DNA of 64,000 nt from Aldrovandia affinis (taxonomy: Eukaryota > Chordata > Actinopteri > Notacanthiformes > Halosauridae). The DNA is taken from contig JAINUG010000018.1 in the NCBI GenBank assembly GCA_029706075.1, positions 682,001 to 746,000 of the forward strand, in the 5' to 3' direction. The first letter of the stretch is position 1; every line of letters begins with the position of its first letter. A program made the translations under genes and the position numbers. Under the pieces are notes generated by a model. That model was not told the origin of the DNA and searched no databases. It saw nothing but the letters and a program-made list of their open reading frames with translations. Of this stretch, positions 14,972 through 50,700 are shown piece by piece.

Positions 14972-16872
14972 CTACTCCTTGCTGCCAGAGACCTGGCAGC
15001 GCTTCCTCTCACATAGCTGAGCAACATTTGGCTTGAGGGAGGAAGCAGTTGAGACCCTCAGTATGGCTTGAAGATGATCATCAGTAAGTCTGGACCTGTA
15101 CTTGGACTTATTGAAGTTCAAGGTGGAGAAGAGCTTTTCGCACAAATATGTGCTCCCAAAAAGGCACATGGTCCGCTTGAACATTCGGGAAAGCTCAGGG
15201 AAGCTGGGGGTCAATTCTCTCAAAAATGTCCCAAGCTTGTCTGCTTTTCCACTCACCTCCCTGAACTTGGCTTTGAGGTCAGAGTTGCACTGCAGGTCAA
15301 TGAGCTCCATTTGAAGCACAGGAGGGGCATCTTGCACATCAAAGGAGAAGGGGTCCGCAAAAATTTGAAAAGTGGCTCTGTGCGTCTTGAAGTCTGCAAA
15401 TCTGTGATCAAATTCCTCCTGTAGCTTCAAAATGGCATCAACATACTTCTCACCACTGAATGGTGTGCCTGCATCCACGAGTGCCTTGCATGCTGGGAAA
15501 TGGCAAAGGTTTGTCTGAGAGAGCTGGGTTTTCCATAACACAAGTTTTGTGGAGAATGCTCTCACGTTGTCATAGGCAGCACTGACGAGCTGCCCCTGGC
15601 CTTGTAACTTGTTCAGTACATTCAGCTCATGCGTGATGTCAACAAGAAAAGCCAAAAGTCCATGAGCCATTTGGGATCACTTAGCACAGGAACAGCCACC
15701 CCATCCTTCTCCATGAAGGCTTTCACTTCTGCTCTTAACTCAAAAAATCTCTTCAAGACGTTTCCCCTGCTGAGCCAACGTACCTCGGTGAAGTAGATCA
15801 CATCCTCATATTCTGACTCCATTTCCTCTAAAAAAGCACGGAACCTCCGGTGCTTTAAGCCCCTGGATCTGATTTGGTTGATGCATTTCACAACGACAGA
15901 CATCACATTGTCAAACTTCAGGCATTTGCTGCAAAGGGCCTGCTGGTGGATAATGCAGTGCAGAGCAATGGCCTCCTCCACACCCTCCTCTTCCAGTTTT
16001 CTTTGAACAAGTGCCACCAGTCCATTTTTCCTCCCTGTCATTGATGGCGCTCCGTCGGTTGTTATTCCAACAAACCTCTTCCATGGCAAACCGGCATTCA
16101 CAATGGTATCACACAGCTGGCGAAATATCTCCTGAGCGGTGGTCTGGCCATGCATTGGAATTACTGTGAGCAACTCCTCCATCACTTCAAAATTGTCATC
16201 AACACCACAGACATACATTGTGAGCTGGGCAGTGTCAGTGATGTCTGTGCTCTCATCAAGAGCGACTGAGTATGCATCGAAACATTTGGCTTTCTCAAGC
16301 AGTTGATCATAAATGTTACTTGACAGGTCAGAAATGCGCTCTGCCACGATGTTGGCAGAAAGGCTGATGTTGCTAAACTGACCTTTCTTTTCCGGACAGA
16401 CTATACTTGCAGCCTGTAATATGCACTTTTTGACAAACTCGCCTTCTGTGAATGGCTTTCCCGCCTTAGCAATCATCTCACTAACCACGTAGCTAGCTTC
16501 GACTGCTGCATTATTCTCTTTGGTTGCTTTCTTGAAGAAATTTTGTTACCTCAGTAGACATGTTTTAAGATTGGCAACCCGGTTGGCTCTCTCATCTCCC
16601 TGGTATTTTGCATACTCCTCAGCATGTCTAGTTGAGTAATGACATTTGAGGTTGTATTCCTTGTGCACCGCAACTTTTTCTGTGCAAATAAGACAAGTTG
16701 GGGTGTTCCTGTGCTCAACAAAGAAATATTGCATCTCCCACTTTTCCTGAAATTGTCTGTGCTCGTCCCCAACCTTTCTCTTCACTGCAGGCTTTGAAAA
16801 AGACATGATTGGGGCTGTGTGACAAGATATATATTCATTCCACTTGGTGTCGCTCTCGCAATAAAGTTTCAA
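14972..16872 (-). pseudogene. hAT transposase, GTF2IRD2/Charlie8-like, broken by one stop and one frameshift
   Basis: The gene reads leftward from 16872. Residues 1-108 hold a zinc-binding N-terminal region with CLIC and a downstream H-X4-H type pair (CHYSTRH). An in-frame TAA at 16546-16548 interrupts it. The same frame continues to about 15650 with the RNase H-like catalytic core: an ALDESTDIT segment (first aspartate), ITTDGAPSM (second aspartate) and ALHCIIHQQALC, a typical hAT block. A frameshift near 15650-15665, in a run of Ts, moves the frame, and the C-terminal hATC dimerisation region with YLCEKLFSTLN follows to 14972. Full span is about 630 codons, normal for the family. Known relatives include the domesticated C-terminal part of mammalian GTF2IRD2. 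With only two lesions the inactivation is recent, or one lesion is a sequencing error. Confidence 0.88.
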
Positions 16873-19886: not shown

Positions 19887-20773
19887 CTAATGCAGCTTTT
19901 TGCACTTGCACTGCCTAACACAACCCTTCTTACATTTGCAAGAGACAAGTTCATAGCTGGAATGGCCTGCATCTGGTAGGCATGTCCAGAAGGGTTCGTA
20001 CCCCTCAGATGTCTTTGACCATCCCCATCTACACGGTGAAGGTAGTTTTGGTGTGGACACTAGCATCTGACCCCACACATGGCCTCCTTGATACACTGCT
20101 CTCTTCACATGCTCCTCTAAGGCAGCCTTTGTTGGAGGGATTGACAGCACATTGTGCCTCTTCGCAAACATCTTCCTCCGTGCCTTGTCTATTTCTTTGC
20201 ATGTGCTGGTTCGGTCATAAAGAAGGATAATAAACCTCTCGATTGTGGCCATTACCTCTTGTGGTATGTCGTCCGGGGCAGAAGATAGTTTCAGCAGGGC
20301 ATGTGTCAGCTCAGGAAAGACAGCCCAAACAGCCCACCCTGTCTTCTTCCCGTGGCCAGCAAAGCTTGATACAGTATCACAGCCCGTCAATGCATGGAAC
20401 ATGGGAAGAGCACGTGCCTTTTCAGGCCCTAGCCCTGCTGCAATTTCATGGGCTGCGAGGTATCGGAAATTCTTTCCAGTTCCAAATGCCAACCAAAGCT
20501 CATTTTCTGGGTGTAGACCTGAGCCACTGCCACAGCCATCACCACAACATCAGTATCAACAGTTTGAATCATGATTTTCTGATGGCCATTTCTTGCTGCA
20601 TGGGCCACATGTAATAACATGCGACTATCAGCTTCCTCGTGTGTACATGGAGCAACTGAAGACGGATCTGGAAGTTGTGGCTTGCTGAAGACTTCCACAT
20701 CATGTGTGACAACAAGCTGTTTGTCTTCCTGCACAAACCATCTAAGCAGAGCATCTGAGAGTAAGGTGAACAA
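19887..20773 (-). pseudogene. XPG/FEN1-like domain protein of a transposon, C-terminal part, frameshifted
   Basis: Two overlapping minus-strand frames (20773-20429 and 20492-19887) form one protein of about 290 residues with a frameshift near 20520. In order they show EEADSRMLLHVAHAA, then TVDTDVVVMAVA, then MAFGTGKNFRYL, then HALTGCDTVSSFAGHGKKTG, and a cysteine/lysine-rich end (CKCKKGCVRQCKCKK). The acidic spacing (E-E-A-D, D-T-D, GCD) parallels the catalytic acids of the XPG/FEN1 I-region (EAEA, DxD, GSD). This kind of protein is repeatedly found, usually uncharacterised, in fish and invertebrate genomes in transposon settings. The N-terminal part is missing or too decayed to see. No transposase (DDE) segment is recognisable in this copy. 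Confidence 0.6.
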
Positions 20774-42176: not shown

Positions 42177-42181
42177 TATAT
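42177..42181 (+). repeat. Gypsy target-site duplication TATAT, left copy
   Basis: TATAT precedes the left LTR and also follows the right LTR (47205-47209). Because the site lies in TA-rich DNA the match is less telling than usual. Confidence 0.7.
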
Positions 42182-42678
42182 TGTCACACGCCACGTGACA
42201 CACCCTGGACGGGAACAGAGTAGTCCAGACACGGAGTGGAGTTTTTCGGCCTACGGACCGGACTTTTATTTATCTTTGTTTTGGACGCGTTCTCTGTTAC
42301 CCCACTGGGCCGAGAACGAGCACCGGGAGCGTAAAATAATAAACACAATTAAACACGTTACCCTAATTGCCGCGAAGCTTTCCGGGTAACTAAACGAAAA
42401 AGACCAAAACTAAATCATACAATATCGAACCGGCTCTTTCTTAGTCCGTTCGATATTTCCTTCACTTTGGTTTGGTTCGCTTTTCTTCCTTGTCCTTTCC
42501 TCGCTCCTCGGTCTCAAAACGCCTCTCTGGTTCCAGCCACCTACTGAAGGGAACAGAGCAGTCTTAAAGCACACAGATGTAATTATTATCGACAGGACCG
42601 GTGTGTGCGCTTACTGCTCTGCCAGTAGGCGTGGCCGCTAATCGTCCTGATTAGCTGCTGAGACCGACGCCTTCCACA
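42182..42678 (-). repeat. 3' LTR of the gypsy element (497 bp)
   Basis: Nearly identical to 46718-47204. About 290 bp at its right side are indistinguishable. The left 200 bp differ by one substitution (C/A) and nine small indels, eight of which are single bases inside short homopolymers, always longer in this copy. LTR ends are TGTGGAAGG and GTGTGACA on the coding strand. Confidence 0.95.
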
Positions 42679-44073
42679 CACCTCCATCGCCAGAATGTGG
42701 CCAGGGCCCATTCGGTTCGACAGACTCCCCCCCCTCCCTGGAGAGGAAGTCTGCGCACCCATTCGCGGACCCTGGCCGATGGATCACTCGGAAGCAAAAG
42801 GGCTGTAGCGCGAGATACCACCGAGTGATCCTGGAGTTGGTGTCCTTCATTCTGTGTAGCCACTGGAGGGTGCATGGTCGGTATAGAGGGTGAAGGCCTT
42901 GCCCAGGAGGTAGTACCGGAGGGTGAGAGAGGCCCATTTGATCACCAGACACTCCTTTTCTATGGTGCTGTAGCGGGCCTCTCTCTGAGAAAGCTTCCGG
43001 CTGATGTAACATACCGGTCGCTCCTCCCCCACACGCTCCTGGGACAAAACTGCACCCACCCCCCTATCCGAGGCGTCGGTCTGTAAAATAAAAGGCAGAG
43101 AGAAATCAGGGCTGATTAGCAGAGGGCCGCCACATAGAGTCGCTTTTATACTCACGAACGCCGCCTGGCACTGCTCCGTCCACTGGACCGGATCTGAGGC
43201 TCCCTTTCGGGTAAGATCAGTTAGGGGACTGGCTAGTGCCGAAAAGCCCGGAATAAACCGGCGATAATAATTTGCCAGTCCCAAAAAGGATCTCACCTGT
43301 TTTTTAGACTTGGGCTGTGGGCAGGCAGAAATGGCTGCGGTTTTATCAATCAAGGGTCTGACCTGCCCCCCGCCCAAGAGGAACCCCAGATACCGTACCT
43401 CTCTCCGCCCAATAGCGCACTTACCTGGGTTAGCAGTGAGCCCCGCTCCCCTCAGCGTCTGTAGGACGGCCCGCAAATGCTGCATATGCCGCTCCCAATC
43501 ATGGCTATAGATGACAATGTCATCCAAATATGCTGCGGCATATGCAGCATGCGGTCAAGTAGCCTATCCGTTAGGCGCTGAAAGGTGGCCGGAGCCCCAT
43601 GCAGACCGAAAGGCAAGGTCAGGAATTGGTGTAAGCCGAGCGGAGTAGAGAATGCCGACTTTTCCCTGGACGCTGGAGACAAGGGAATCTGCCAGTAGCC
43701 CTTGGTTAAATCCAGTGTCGAATAAGCGAGCAGTGCCCAACCGATCCAGCAGCTCGTCAACCGGGGCATTGGATAGGCATCGAATTTCGATACTGCGTTA
43801 ACTTTCCTGTAGTCCACACAGAATCGAACCGACCCATCAGGTTTAGGCACAAGCACAATGGGGCTGCACCAGTCACTATTAGACTCCTCTATTACCCCCA
43901 TGTCTAACATTTTTTCCAATTCTTCCTGAACCACTTTTTTTTGTGTTCAGGCAAGCGATATGGCCGGCTCTAATCACGGTGCCTGGCGGGGTCTGAATGT
44001 GGTGTTCAATCAAGTCCGTTCGCCCGGGTAAGGGAGAAAACACGTCAGAAAAACAGCGTTGTAAACTACTCAC
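42638..44073 (-). pseudogene. Gypsy-type reverse transcriptase and RNase H
   Basis: Read leftward from 44073. The first part (FSDVFSPLPGRTDLIEHHI) is the usual gypsy reverse transcriptase entry. After a frameshift near 43950 come VIEESNSDWCSPIVLVPKPDG, VRFCVDYRKVNAVSKFDAYP, STLDLTKGYWQIPL and FGLHGAPATFQRL. A further frameshift precedes the catalytic YLDD at 43519-43530, followed by DIVIYSHDWERH. The connection and RNase H follow: FLGLANYYRRFIPGF, LQTDASDRGVGAVLSQ (catalytic aspartate), YSTIEKECLVIKWA (glutamate) and YTDHAP (aspartate). After one more shift near 42860 the end reads VIHRPGSANGCADFLSR. Only about 50 codons remain before the 3' LTR, so there is no room for an integrase downstream. 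Confidence 0.93.
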
Positions 44074-44250
44074 CTCTGCTCGCTGGCCCGGCGTAAGATG
44101 GCTGCCAACGGGACCGGAAGTCCTGTGCTTTCAATTGGAATTTCCGGTCCCAGCTCATCTCGGGGATTTTCTGGCATGGCAAGCGAAACAGGGTCTACCA
44201 CCTCCCACCGTTTTAATAAATTTAGGTGGTATATCTGACGTGAGCCACCT

Positions 44251-45384
44251 CTATCCGGCGAATGACTTCATAATCAACATCCCCACTCGCCGTGTAACCT
44301 CAAAGGGCCCTTGCCACTTTGCGAGCAGCTTAGATGCTGACGTTGGGAGTAATACTAGGACTTGATCTCCCGGTTGAAAATTTCGCAATTGTGCCCCCCT
44401 GTTATATTGCCGTCTCTGTCGTTCCTGGGCCTGGAGCAAATGTTCTCGTGAAATTTGTCCGAGTGAGTGCAGCTTTGCTCGTAGGTCCATGACGTATTGA
44501 ATTTCATTTTTGCTGGGGCTCGGATTTTCCTCCCAAGTTTCTTTTAATAAATCCAGAATACCCCTGGGACGTCGCCCATATAATAATTCAAACGGGAAAA
44601 CCGGTGGAGGCTTGGGAACCTCTCTGACGGCAAACATCAGCGGATCAATTAGTTTATGCCAATTCTTTAAATCGGTTTGAAAGAACTTACGCATCATGGA
44701 TTTCAATGTCTGATTGAACCGCTCTACCAGCCCGTCAGTTTGTGGGTGGTATACGCTAGTTCGAATCGACTTGATGTCCAATAATGCGTACAGTTCCTTC
44801 AGTGTTCGTGACATAAATGAAGTGCCTTGATCAGTGAGAATCTCTTTCGGGATTCCCACCCGGGAGAAAAAGTGGAACAACTCCTCCGCAATAGTCTTTG
44901 CAGATATATTGCGGAGGGTACAGCTCAGGGTATCGCGTTGCGTAGTCTACGATAACTAATACAAAGCGGTACCCTTTGGCACTCCGATCAAATGGCCCGA
45001 TAAGGTCCATTCCAATTCTTCGAAACGGAACCTCTATTAAAGGCAAGGGGTACAATGGAGCTTTTGGAATTGCCGCTGGGTTTACTTTTTGACATTCGGG
45101 GCACGCCGCACACCACCGACGGACGTTATCTCGAATGCCCGGCCAATAGAATCGAGCCATTATCCGGGATAGTGTCTTATCCTGTCCTAAATGACCCGCC
45201 ATGGGATTGCTATGAGCCGCCTGGAAAACCATTTCCCGACGGCTTTTGGGCAGTAATAACTGTGTAAGTTCTGCTCCTGTATAGGCGTCCCGACACACGC
45301 GATACAGTCTATCCTGTAAGATACAAAAATAGGGTATGTCACCACCCGCTCTGGATAAAGCAGCTGGCCATCAATCTTAATCAT
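44251..45384 (-). pseudogene. Gypsy-type integrase, located upstream of reverse transcriptase
   Basis: Frames 45384-45187, 45298-44831 and 44880-44251 together form a full integrase. The N-terminal HHCC zinc module is visible (AHSNPMAGHLGQDKT and CAACPECQ). The catalytic D,D,E residues lie in IGMDLIGPF, LTDQGTSFMS and HPQTDGLVERFNQTL. A C-terminal GPF module is present (AKWQGPFEVTRRVG). Frameshifts sit near 45340, near 44870 between the first two catalytic aspartates, and near 44290. This is a gypsy-type integrase by its HHCC spacing and GPF module, but it lies between protease and reverse transcriptase. No chromodomain is seen. Confidence 0.92.
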
Positions 45385-46050
45385 GGTCAGCTACTCGACT
45401 GAGCGTTTCGTCCTGCGACTGTTCGAGTGAAAAATCAGTCACTCTGGTGAGTCGGGAGCGCCGGCCCCGCCCGCGTTTCCCGAGCGGCCTTTCGGTCACC
45501 TCGGGTTGTTGCGGGGCGATAGCCGACGGCCCCTCCCCTGGGTCGTTGTCATCTCTGACGTCCTCCCCCAGTTGCCACAAGACGATAGCGACCACACCCT
45601 GTCGGGCCCCTTCCGCAATCCCCTTTCGAACTGTAGCTCTAAATCCCGGCCAATCGTGCCCCAAAATCAGCGGAAGGGGGTGCGGGAGTAACCCTGCCAC
45701 CATGCTATGCTTTTTCCCCCAATATAAAATTCAATCCAGCGCGGTTGGATAGTAGTGTACATCCCCGTGTACGCACCTTATCGCCACCTCTGTGAGCCTG
45801 TCCAATGCCTCGGGTTGAACCAGACGCTGATGCACAAAGTGCGAGAACAACCCGTGTCCAACAGCGCCTGGATTGTTTTCCCTTTGATACTTACGGGTAC
45901 CAAAAACGACTCTGCTGGTTCGGGGGAGTAGTGCTGGGCAGCGGGGCGTCGGCGATGTTTACATCCCTCAAGGGCCAGACTCGGCGGATGCGGCCAGGAC
46001 GCCCACACTGCCAACAGTCCTGCCCCGCCGTCCGTGCAGACCCTGGGTGA
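45377..46050 (-). pseudogene. Zinc knuckle remnant and aspartic protease of the gypsy element
   Basis: Read leftward from 46050. A CWQCGRPGRIRRVW segment has the start of a CCHC knuckle, but the histidine position is arginine and the last cysteine position is tryptophan. The retropepsin follows: LVPVSIKGKTIQALLDTGCS with the catalytic DTG. A frameshift just after CSRTL moves the frame, and another occurs before the second frame (45703-45377), which contains PLPLILGHDWPGF, the flap-distal conserved block of gypsy proteases. A hydrophilic linker with many Arg and Asp leads to the integrase. Confidence 0.82.
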
Positions 46051-46098
46051 CCTGGAACCGAGAGGTTAGGACGATTAAAAACATGGTCTCGGGGAGGG

Positions 46099-46716
46099 TT
46101 ATGGGTTCGGGACGGGGTTCGGGAGGGCGTAGACTTGGGTTGGGGCTGGGAATGGACTGGGGAAGACGGGAAATAGGGACGTTGGGGGCGGGAGCTGTAC
46201 CCTGGGCTTCTCAGCCCTCCTGCTTTCTGGGAAAGACGGGGAATAGGGACGTTGGGGCGGGAGCTGTACCCTGGGCTTTTCAGCCCTCCAGCTCTCTGGG
46301 GAAGACGGGAATAGGGACGTTGGGGCGGAGCTGTACCCTGGGCTTTTCAGCCCTCCAGCTCTCTGGGGAAGGCGGGGAATAGGGGCGTTGGGGCGGGAGC
46401 TGTGCCATGGGCTTTTCAGCCCTCCAGCTCTCTGGGAACATCTCCCCGTATCCCCACGGACCGCCAGGCGATTCTCCGCCAGCTGGACGCCTGCAGTCAG
46501 CCCCTGCAGCTCCTTGTTCTCAATCCGCAGTTTGGAGATCTCTTTATCCTTTGCTTCCATTGCTTTGTGCAAGTTCTCATTCTCCGCAGAACATTGTACA
46601 GAGCTTTCTGCCGTTCTTCCGCCACCTCCTTCCAGTATGTGGACTTCATTTCGGCTCTCCACAAACAGAACGCCAAGACAATCTGCTGCTCTTTCCTCCC
46701 CGGGTTTCGGCACCAC
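46099..46716 (-). CDS. gag-like open frame with internal 22-23 residue repeats
   Basis: A 205-codon frame begins right after the 5' LTR, overlapping the primer-binding site. Residues about 40-90 are charged and heptad-like (LHKAMEAKDKEISKLRIENK), a probable coiled coil. The rest consists of about four copies of a Ser/Pro-rich repeat (RAEKPRVQLPP and variants), the translation of the tandem DNA repeat at 46160-46435. No capsid major homology region is recognisable, so the gag is short compared with typical gypsy gag. Either it is a divergent gag or the capsid part has been lost. Confidence 0.55.
   Translation of the reverse strand: MVPKPGEERAADCLGVLFVESRNEVHILEGGGGRTAESSVQCSAENENLHKAMEAKDKEISKLRIENKELQGLTAGVQLAENRLAVRGDTGRCSQRAGGLKSPWHSSRPNAPIPRLPQRAGGLKSPGYSSAPTSLFPSSPESWRAEKPRVQLPPQRPYSPSFPESRRAEKPRVQLPPPTSLFPVFPSPFPAPTQVYALPNPVPNP
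46160..46435 (+). repeat. 67-69 bp tandem repeat in the gag region, four copies
   Basis: Units beginning (G)GAAGACGGGGAATAGGGAC start near 46161, 46229, 46299 and 46366 and end in CAGCCCTCCAGCTCTCTGG. Units differ chiefly in G-run length. Confidence 0.88.
46699..46715 (-). other. Primer-binding site complementary to tRNA-Phe
   Basis: On the minus strand, two bases after the 5' LTR, lies TGGTGCCGAAACCCGGG. It is complementary over 17 bases to the 3' end of vertebrate tRNA-Phe (CCCGGGTTTCGGCA plus CCA). This fixes the 5' LTR as the right-hand copy and the direction of transcription as minus. Confidence 0.85.
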
Positions 46717-46717
46717 T

Positions 46718-47204
46718 TGTCACACGCCACGTGACACACCCTGGACGGAACAGAGTAGTCCAGACACGGAGTGGAGTTTTCGGCCTACGGACGGACTTTT
46801 ATTTATCTTTGTTTTGGACGCGTTCTCTGTTACCCCACTGGGCGAGCGAGCACCGGAGCGTAAAATAATAAACACAATTAAACACGTTACCTAATTGCAG
46901 CGAAGCTTTCGGGTAACTAAACGAAAAGACCAAAACTAAATCATACAATATCGAACCGGCTCTTTCTTAGTCCGTTCGATATTTCCTTCACTTTGGTTTG
47001 GTTCGCTTTTCTTCCTTGTCCTTTCCTCGCTCCTCGGTCTCAAAACGCCTCTCTGGTTCCAGCCACCTACTGAAGGGAACAGAGCAGTCTTAAAGCACAC
47101 AGATGTAATTATTATCGACAGGACCGGTGTGTGCGCTTACTGCTCTGCCAGTAGGCGTGGCCGCTAATCGTCCTGATTAGCTGCTGAGACCGACGCCTTC
47201 CACA
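46718..47204 (-). repeat. 5' LTR of the gypsy element (487 bp), promoter-bearing
   Basis: Partner of 42182-42678. As the 5' LTR of a minus-strand element it should contain the promoter. I did not identify a confident TATA box. Confidence 0.95.
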
Positions 47205-47214
47205 TATATATATA

Positions 47215-47767
47215 CACTACCGGTCAAAAGTTTGAGTACACCTGCTGGAAACTAGGTTTATCTCATAATTGACAATGCTTTACACCGTATACATTTCTGT
47301 AAATACTTTAAAATGACAAAAAACACATGTAACAATGAACAAAATGAACATCAAAGAAATGTTCAAGAAAATTATATTGAAAATTGAATCTTGGATTCCT
47401 CAAAATAGTCACCCTTTGGCGTGAGAATAGCCTCACAAACAGTGGCCATTCGGTTAATACGTTTTAGCAGGAAATCACCCGACATGTTTTCCCAGCTATC
47501 CTGCAGCAATTCCCAGAGAAACTTGTGGGTTGCTTTGCTTTGACTCTTCCTTTCCAGTTTGTCCCATACAAGTTCTATGGGATTGAGGTCTGGACACTGG
47601 GCAGGCCAGGTCTTTAGTTTGAGTTGTTGTTCACATTCCTCCTTCACCAGATAGTTCTTGCACAACTTCAAGGTGTGTTTCGGGTCATTATCTTGCTGAA
47701 GAATGAAGGAGTGCCCGATTAGCCATAGTCCAGATGGAAGGTGTACTCAAACTTTTGACCGGTAGTG
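47215..47767 (-). mobile_element. Tc1-like deletion derivative, 553 bp, copy 1
   Basis: Both ends are the same perfect 29 bp inverted repeat starting CACTACCGGTCAAAAGTTTG, flanked by TA (47213-47214 and 47768-47769). It lies ten bases from the gypsy LTR. The interior keeps only the C-terminal third of a transposase. A sister copy sits at 51576-52127. Confidence 0.95.
47372..47671 (-). pseudogene. Tc1-like transposase C-terminal fragment, copy 1
   Basis: A 99-codon minus-strand frame reads KLCKNYLVKEECEQQLKLKT, then WPAQCPDLNPIELVWDKLER (the catalytic glutamate lies in the DLNPIE block) and SGDFLLKRINRMATVCEAIL, ending near the left inverted repeat. The helix-turn-helix region and both catalytic aspartates are deleted, so it cannot act alone. 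Confidence 0.9.
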
Positions 47768-47769
47768 TA

Positions 47770-50700
47770 TATAATGAAATACAAAACCGGTTATAAGAAA
47801 ACAAACCAGGCAGTGAAACTAGTATGTGTATGTGTAGATATATTTCATGCACTGTTTCAGGCATTAATGTAAAATGGAAGAGAGGTCATCCCCTTGTGTA
47901 GAGTATTACAGTGACTCCTCATTGAGCTGGTTGAGTGGGCACCTATTCACACACGGAGGGGGCACCTCATCTGGCCTGGCACTAGCACTGAAAAAAAATC
48001 TTCCAAATTATTTTTCCAACTGCACAAAGTAAAATAATCAGTCTAAGTTCAATGTGAAAACATTTGCAAACACGTGGAAACATGTGACATGAGCACAGAA
48101 CGTACTGCTCATGGTCAAAAATCGAATTACAATACTTTCTTTTTGGGCATTGGAACAGATGATGAATTTGTGTACTACAGTCAATATTCATAGAAATAAA
48201 TATTACTAGTAAAGCAAGCAAAGTCACGCACGAACAAACAAACTGTAACTAGTATGTGCAGCTAGCACCAGTAGCAAAGTTAATTAGCTGCATGCACCAG
48301 ATATCAGCCTGTTAAAGCAAGCCAATAAATCACAGTGAGGATTCCACATAATTATTTCATCCCTTGGCCCAGGGACGAGAGTACATGTTTTAAATGGCCT
48401 AGTGGTGAGAGTTTGCAGATGTAGAGGTTAAGCTCTGAATATCGAAGAGTTGTCTTTACTATACTATGTTTCAGAGCATGCTGATGTGTCACTTATTAAC
48501 ATATCCGGTGTCAGTTTTGATCTAGGGCTGTGCGTGTGTTTGGATGGAATATAACTATTTTAGTAAAGTCATCCTAGGTGGTGGAAAATCTTCGAGCTCA
48601 CTAATACCCCCAACTCCTCTCTGTGAGGTCAGGGAAAACTATTTTAAAATAAGAAGGACAGAACAGAGTGCAACCATGACTAAATGTGAATGAGTAATTC
48701 TCGTGCAGCAGCTTGAAAAGCAGGTTTCCCGAAACCCCTTCCTGTTATACAGACTTTTTTCAGATCTCTTGGGTAGGGTTGTGATATTATTTTCCTGTAG
48801 GATACTTTTTTGGCTGGAGACCATTTGGAGAAGTTCCATTCGCATTTCCCCTGTTTATTTAGACCTTTTTTTGGCTCTGCGCCTCATGAGTGTAATTTGG
48901 ACGAGTGCAGCTCATTCGCCTTTGGGCTCATTAAGAACAATATAAACAGTAATTACAGTGATTGCCTAATTAATTCCTTTTTTTTAATAGCGCGTGGTTA
49001 GGATGCATGAGAAAATCTTTTCTGCGATAACAATCCAACAGAAACACTGTTGACATAATTAGCAATTATATGCAGCAAAACATGAGTGAAATCATTGAAA
49101 ACTGTTAAATTCCTTTTCATATATTTCCATTTTTATGATTCATTGCAGTTTATAAGACTGCTGTTTTATATAATTATTCTCTTTCTGTGTGACAGCTTTG
49201 CTCAGCTGATAAATCTAATTCTCTCCCCAGACAATTTCTTTTGTTTTAATGCCATTTATATAACCCTCTGATCACCGGATGGCAGTCAGTGATTATTGTG
49301 CTGAAAGAATACCCATTAGGGGTTTAAATGTAGCAGTATTCATAGCTGGTTAATTGGTCAGTTAATTATGGACCGAGTTAACAATGATTAGCATTCAACA
49401 GTATAAAGAGGAGTTTGTTGTGTGTTTGGGTGATATGGGAATGTAAATAAACATCGCCATACATTTGATAGCATTTTCATGATATAATGTCACCAATTAT
49501 CTGCCAGGCTATTTGGTTGCATTGTGTGCCAGCAGTGTAGCAAGGTTTTAAACCTCACATGTTCAACTCTGAGATCATCTTATTTAGACAATTGCAACTG
49601 TCACATAAATGGGAGAGTACAGTCTTCAGGAGACAGAGCACATACTGTAAAGAAATCCAAAATTAAATGTGATGTTATACCTCTGTGAGTGTGTGTGCAT
49701 TCCTGTCTAAATCTTCAAATGTAATCCCTCATATACTGTATGTGCAACCCCCTATGTACCAATAATACATGCAAATAATACATTTTTTAAAAGACAGCTT
49801 TTTATTTTTATTCAAAAACAGGAGTGGTTTTTCAATTTGTGGTCAACAGTTTAGAAAAACCTAGGCAGGATTCTCAATGATAAGAATAAGACAGTAAAGA
49901 ACAACCTTTTAACAACATGGTGCACACATAAAACATGTAAACATGTAGACCATATTTTAGGACAGCTGTTTATGTCACTATGAAATGGTAAAGTGGTTAA
50001 CTGAAGAATTTTGCCACAATGAGTTAAACCTTAACAATGCCAAAATCAAGGCATTGTACAGGTGTAATTATAGTATACACACAGCTCTGTTTACCAACAG
50101 CATTATGTCAAAGCACAATGCCATGTCATGCACTATATCAACCACAACAGCTACATTTTAGAATCTAGGTTTTTGATATTATAACGATGTGTTAGCATTA
50201 TGTTTTTGGATGATAATTAGTTTTAGATTCAACTACATTTTTGACAAAAGTGTAGGATTTACAAGATATTATTGTGACTTCCCTAAATTGTATAAAATAA
50301 GTACAAGAATGAATATGCATAATGGTGGCATGCATACAACTGTATTTACAACTTTGTATGGGTCTCCAAATGGTATATGACATCAGAATGGCTTAAGTGT
50401 GAAGAAACTATAACTATAACATGTATTTTGCCAACATCATATTTATTTTTAGTTTGTACTTAATTTATAAGCATATATATGCTTATATATTTATATATTT
50501 AATGAAATTCTTATCAAATCTAATGTGAGAGATCATTTGAATATATTTAATAAGATTGCTAATTGTGTTACAGGTCAAGGGGAAAAATATATTTTAAATA
50601 TATTTATTCATTATACCAACGTTACATATTATCAAAGCAATTATAGTTCATTATAGTGAAACCTACAATATGAATGTTATCATTGTAAAAAAATATATTT

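Follow-up and report, generated by a model that had tools for sequence, protein, structure and literature searches.

The window analyzed here is the 64,000-nucleotide stretch from position 682001 to 746000 of contig C890 in the 1.22 Gb genome assembly of the fish Aldrovandia affinis (L-numbers below denote fetched loci, C-numbers contigs). A long terminal repeat (LTR) retrotransposon lies on its minus strand at 42182-47204. With its LTRs, primer binding site, gypsy-type reverse transcriptase and RNase H, and short target duplication, it is a Ty3/gypsy element (Table 1). The first-pass annotation of the window had read its enzyme domains in the order protease, integrase, reverse transcriptase, RNase H and had assigned it to the Gmr1-like group. 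Pfam matches and reading frames bear out the order and the coordinates, and the group assignment has gained support. That reading was incomplete in one respect: it missed that a piece of host geminin stands in place of the gag capsid.

Table 1. Features of the retrotransposon in the window, listed 5′ to 3′ along the element.
Feature	Position in window	Strand	Basis and remarks
Target-site duplication, other side	47205..47209		flank comparison
5′ LTR	46718..47204	-	TGTGG...GACA ends; repeat comparison
Primer binding site TGGTGCCGAAACCCGGGG	46698..46715	-	2 bases past the LTR
Captured geminin coiled coil, host exons spliced	46504..46649	-	PF07412; two frames, frameshift near 46585
Gag tail: old end of capsid region, then proline-rich tandem repeats of ~67-70 nucleotides	46100..46503	-	
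Degenerate zinc knuckle	45975..46016	-	histidine and last cysteine replaced; same change in siblings
Protease, DTG active site	45377..46014	-	two frames; weak Asp_protease_2 E=0.0016, RVP E=0.0039
Integrase: H2C2 zinc domain, DDE core, GPF module	44251..45298	-	two frames; PF17921 E=1.6e-22
Reverse transcriptase, YLDD	43183..43934	-	two frames; PF00078 E=8.1e-13 and 2e-9
RNase H	42796..43182	-	PF17919 E=1.1e-32, PF17917 E=7.4e-29
3′ LTR	42182..42678	-	repeat comparison; ends read in the sequence
Target-site duplication, one side	42177..42181		ATATA on the minus strand

In the window copy, geminin is matched by the first frame that follows the 5′ LTR (PF07412, E = 2.7e-8), and the adjoining frame holds the stretch of coil that precedes it (E = 7.2e-8). 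Geminin chains from the PDB match both pieces colinearly; identity between the insert and the host geminin cDNA is 87%. In L014 (E = 2.7e-22) and L023 (E = 3.8e-23) the coil is unbroken and shares a single frame with gag tail and protease. By sequence the piece is a coiled coil of the geminin family.

To describe the family we call siblings with a SCAN-type gag class A and copies with the geminin coil class B. The SCAN domain of class A matches PF02023 (E = 1.4e-18 in L029). The two starts exclude each other among the 40 loci retrieved: the coil is present in 13 and a SCAN capsid or class A N-terminus in 22, five have neither and none has both, though these loci were hand-picked, mostly from the top of the integrase match list, and the counts are not genome-wide proportions. 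Neither the window copy nor any of the 13 class B loci has a SCAN-type capsid; geminin is found instead. SCAN itself is abundant in the genome, with at least 150 matches, all over the cut-off, and open frames of up to 1503 amino acids (of 913 candidates, 150 were scored). Among the 40 loci, all 12 class B loci in which the knuckle can be read have another residue in place of its histidine. Most class B copies have also lost the last knuckle cysteine, which L037, L054 and the unlabelled L027 retain.

To find the source of the coil we searched the genome for geminin. The 54 matches comprise four exons of a single intron-containing locus, C2134:682913-684395 (L050), and 50 matches at 48 non-host places. 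Host exon parts lie at L050:626-682, 1135-1218 and 1686-1796, with GT-AG introns between them; one intron (L050:1219-1685) splits the coil and another precedes it. In the longest class B inserts, L051-L054, these three exons are joined exactly at both host splice junctions, giving 218 nucleotides or about 73 codons, of which 203, 204, 203 and 197 nucleotides, respectively, are identical to the host exons. Probes from the ends of both introns matched none of the 40 non-host places that were read (39 loci and the window). All 40 are 87-94% identical in nucleotides to the host exons, and in 38 the gag tail adjoins the coil. Spliced host geminin mRNA was thus captured and amplified with the element, which is thereby a host-gene-transducing retroelement. 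Host geminin is the source of the captured exons and of the dimer coil. Unlike it, the element copies that were read have neither its C-terminal part nor the exon carrying RRTL, which we take to be a destruction-box-like motif, and young copies have nothing before the coil. Between primer site and geminin, L052, L054 and L055 have a leader of about 50 nucleotides that includes a start codon and is unlike the class A gag start. A leader probe, compared with the window and the host geminin locus only, matched the leader of the element itself and the beginning of a geminin exon; the leader itself had no match in the host geminin locus.

Class B appears to go back to one event. The protease region is not part of the exchanged stretch, and a tree of 37 rows built from it places the 14 class B rows together to one side of a branch supported at 100/99 and present in all 200 bootstrap trees (L018, L020 and L039 were dropped as short, and L026 gave no hit). 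The unlabelled L017 and L027 group with class B and have the altered knuckle in common with it. A single origin of class B is strongly supported by these comparisons.

After the capture the insert became shorter. Measured on the host cDNA, inserts begin at one of three positions: 1 (four places), about 50-57 (six places, including L076 and L048, in the latter of which an earlier piece survives on the far side of an insertion) and 69 (30 places). The last shortening stops at a TCCACA that is repeated, which is what deletion between short repeats would be expected to leave. The trimmed insert corresponds to about residues 96-142 of human geminin, with numbering taken from alignments to 2wvr. In the available part of one report the seven-heptad coil of geminin spans residues 96-144 (PMC3814758); stepwise shortening has thus left nearly the seven-heptad dimer coil.

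Copies of the element have spread to separate sites. In 22 flanks of 13 elements, the only sequence in common was one 106-nucleotide repeat at 73% identity. A 5-bp target duplication flanks nine of 11 elements tested, including the class B copies L015, L023 and the window; L025 is one of the two that lack it. The insertions look independent. Some class B copies are arranged head to tail about 4.5 kb apart (L014:2607-9962, L016:39-7633, C1569, C1269, C2355 and C633). The paired units have an LTR in common in L014 and L016, and the other pairs are known by spacing only. This arrangement suggests LTR recombination or tandem insertion.

The window element is a young copy. Over 498 aligned columns its LTRs, which begin with TGTGG and end with GACA, show a single substitution and nine gap events (10 bases), and every gap sits in the 5′ copy (46718-46965). 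As first annotated, the LTRs share a target duplication of 5 bp, ATATA; inside a TA-rich stretch this is weak evidence when taken alone. The class A LTR pairs of L012 (0 substitutions in 424) and L029 (3 in 427) are about as young. At least six frame changes separate the domain frames of the window copy. That LTR gaps far outnumber substitutions suggests that part of the difference is sequencing or assembly error. The LTRs of L012 are identical, yet its gag is spread over three frames, and the pattern in L012 and in the window LTRs looks like indel error of the assembly. Within the window copy, the protease frame with the DTG motif runs over 45778-46014 and the region continues to 45377. The integrase core matches rve_3 (E = 1.8e-4) and PF00665 (E = 9.2e-4), both below the cut-offs. 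About 40 codons lie between the last, weak RNase H match (E = 0.071) and the LTR. The primer binding site resembles the complement of what we take to be the tRNA-Phe 3′ end. Beside the 5′ LTR, at 47209-47773, perfect 35-nucleotide inverted repeats surround a transposase-like frame (47372-47671), presumably Tc1-like judging by eye. Long transposon-like frames also occur at 14972-16488 and 19887-20492, the first hAT-like by eye.

To determine whether the order of domains is common to the family, a check proposed by the first-pass annotation, we retrieved 20 loci of 9-10 kb each from among the best integrase matches of this genome. Seventeen contain both the integrase and the reverse transcriptase of the window family, and in all 17 the integrase comes first on the same strand. 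The other three (L019, L027 and L028) have no reverse transcriptase. The count leaves out weaker matches that other gypsy elements gave in L021, L024 and L025. Two diverged relatives picked for their long open frames, L077 and L078, show matches to SCAN, integrase, reverse transcriptase and RNase H in this order within one frame; of the two, only L077 was matched by a short protease probe. By the same method, a neighboring gypsy element (L021:6696-8231) and L001 have the usual order of reverse transcriptase, RNase H, integrase. An assembly artifact as the cause of the order, against which the first reading had argued, is ruled out by recurrence at independent loci and by relatives that have every domain in a single frame. 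The integrase-first architecture is genuine and common to the family.

The order and the SCAN gag of the siblings, rather than a tree that includes Gmr1, support placing the family with the Gmr1-like elements. Gmr1 of cod was reportedly treated by Butler et al. in 2001 and by Goodwin and Poulter in 2002. In a rough reverse transcriptase tree a branch with 90/88 support sets the integrase-first rows apart from two further gypsy rows; some rows are long, the bootstrap is unsettled, and the domain order of one of the two gypsy rows was not seen. SCAN is the reported gag of Gmr1-like elements (PMC3424704, PMC4131045, as far as their available text goes), and in the latter it is common without being universal, occurring in more than half of the frog Gmr elements. 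Like the Gmr1-like elements, the family has LTRs, integrase upstream of reverse transcriptase and a SCAN-type gag in siblings. It differs in that the window copy has host geminin for the capsid part of gag and has lost its zinc knuckle. No relatives were confirmed in viral contigs, where integrase, reverse transcriptase and coil were sought. Contigs of other genomes gave one gypsy element, of usual order, in the bacterial metagenome-assembled contig L001 (JAEEHM010000102.1), and plasmid records gave two with distant reverse transcriptase matches. Gypsy-type reverse transcriptase and RNase H are held by L001, assigned to Bacillota, and by a Wolbachia plasmid record (NZ_CP087956.1); in both they are probably eukaryotic contamination.

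We consider it probable, with good confidence, that a Gmr1-like element exchanged its capsid for captured geminin, spread, was trimmed, and is most likely moved by siblings with SCAN capsids. A Gmr1-like lineage once copied spliced host geminin mRNA into its own genome, and the spliced insert points to copy-choice capture, that is, template switching by reverse transcriptase during reverse transcription. The captured stretch took the place of the SCAN-type capsid and of the beginning of gag, and it runs in frame into the final portion of gag. Because the join is in frame, coil, gag tail and enzymes can form one polyprotein; the predicted product runs from geminin coil through gag tail, protease, integrase and reverse transcriptase to RNase H. 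The lineage then spread, successive deletions reducing the insert from about 73 codons to little more than the coil while the zinc knuckle decayed. With no recognizable capsid and no intact knuckle, self-packaging of RNA is unlikely, and class B elements probably cannot package their own RNA. Movement would most likely be in particles of co-resident siblings with a SCAN capsid. Since class A siblings with young LTRs are present, particle borrowing is the simplest account, and the bearers of the SCAN matches in the genome are candidate helpers. The geminin part may supply the start of the polyprotein and a dimerizing N-terminus. Both this role of the coil and the trans-mobilization are inferences.

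Several points weigh against this account. Trans-mobilization is a putative step, and an intact SCAN-capsid sibling was not demonstrated: the gag frames of L012 are broken and L029 has an insertion in its integrase. Many frames of the assembly are broken by single-base gaps, and the intactness of copies therefore cannot be judged. The remaining gag tail may hide a cryptic capsid. The protease tree is unrooted; that SCAN preceded geminin is judged from how widely SCAN occurs in the family, along with a remnant of the SCAN end in class B. Forty of the 48 non-host places were read. Among these, L028 and L076 are without the gag tail, with deletions there, and in L053 the gag tail appears to pass straight into 3′ LTR-like sequence. 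Like L025, L013 has no target duplication.

We also considered whether the coil was retained because it does something for the element, either replacing the SCAN dimer or binding Cdt1 or host proteins of the geminin family and altering replication licensing to the element's benefit. This is a possibility we hold to be unlikely, perhaps a chance of one in several. The near coincidence of the trimmed insert with the seven-heptad coil favors it, as does the omission of the RRTL exon. A licensing effect of a coil without a destruction box would be akin to what is thought of cell-cycle genes captured by retroviruses. Thirty-three of 35 ungapped coils are free of stops (two contain one), and mean pairwise divergence is 0.083 at nonsynonymous and 0.175 at synonymous sites, from 41 non-independent pairs of 13 copies. 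With seven independent pairs, however, there were 28.5 nonsynonymous and 12.5 synonymous changes, a deficit that is not significant (P 0.08-0.52, depending on the assumed transition bias), and a codon model did not improve when the ratio was left free (-493.103) rather than fixed at 1 (-493.107). Selection on the coil, tested in these two ways, was not demonstrated. Biochemistry points both ways. In the accessible part of one study the coil together with the sequence just before it suffices to block licensing, and a site inside the coil is the stronger one and matters more for Cdt1 binding (PMC4488664), in Xenopus numbering that is unmapped onto the captured coil. Young copies keep most of the coil, but the sequence before it, with its site, is gone. 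Shortening of the coil end is reported there to abolish inhibition, and the captured coil ends near residue 142. Still less probable, in our estimate, is a more specific version in which a degron-free geminin coil, traded for the capsid, would act on Cdt1 or on dimers of the geminin family, tying movement to licensing while particles are borrowed.

Two further explanations have next to no standing. That this is a plain Gmr1-like element of known order with a chance coiled coil resembling geminin fits the order and the sibling SCAN gag typical of that group, but is refuted by the matches to host geminin cDNA: two colinear Pfam matches, 87-94% identity in every place read and two exact splice joins. 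A processed geminin pseudogene or an assembly error beside or inside a few elements, which the many single-base gaps of the assembly here might bring to mind, is as improbable. Recurrence at independent sites refutes it: 38 of the 40 places have the gag-tail junction, the copies fall to one side of a single branch, and flanks are unrelated where tested.

Capture of host mRNA is already known in retroviruses and in crocodilian endogenous retroviruses. The crocodilian CrocERV29 and CrocERV31 carry captured KIT-ligand and nectin3 mRNA, according to the accessible text of their description (PMC4299795). As in class B, a host mRNA was captured and amplified in several copies, and capture of nectin3 came at the cost of a viral gene, env. 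They differ in being retroviruses, in the site of the insert, which falls between pol and env or replaces env, not a capsid, and in the purifying selection reported there, which we did not find for the geminin coil. The same source names the cyclin homologues of walleye epidermal hyperplasia virus and Src of Rous sarcoma virus as host-derived regulators of cell division (PMC4299795), as geminin is here; those are infectious retroviruses, and a function of the geminin piece is putative. Among the matches listed, and in the titles and opening lines of abstracts of open papers, we found no report of geminin in an LTR retrotransposon; an earlier description is possible.

Capture of host genes by retroviruses is well known and is seldom caught in steps. 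Here one genome contains the donor gene, siblings with a capsid, long and intermediate inserts and young copies that have been trimmed, and with all these stages together the route of capture can be read directly. The family also poses the question of how an element with no recognizable capsid and a broken knuckle multiplies, and whether it is aided in this by a fragment of a replication regulator.

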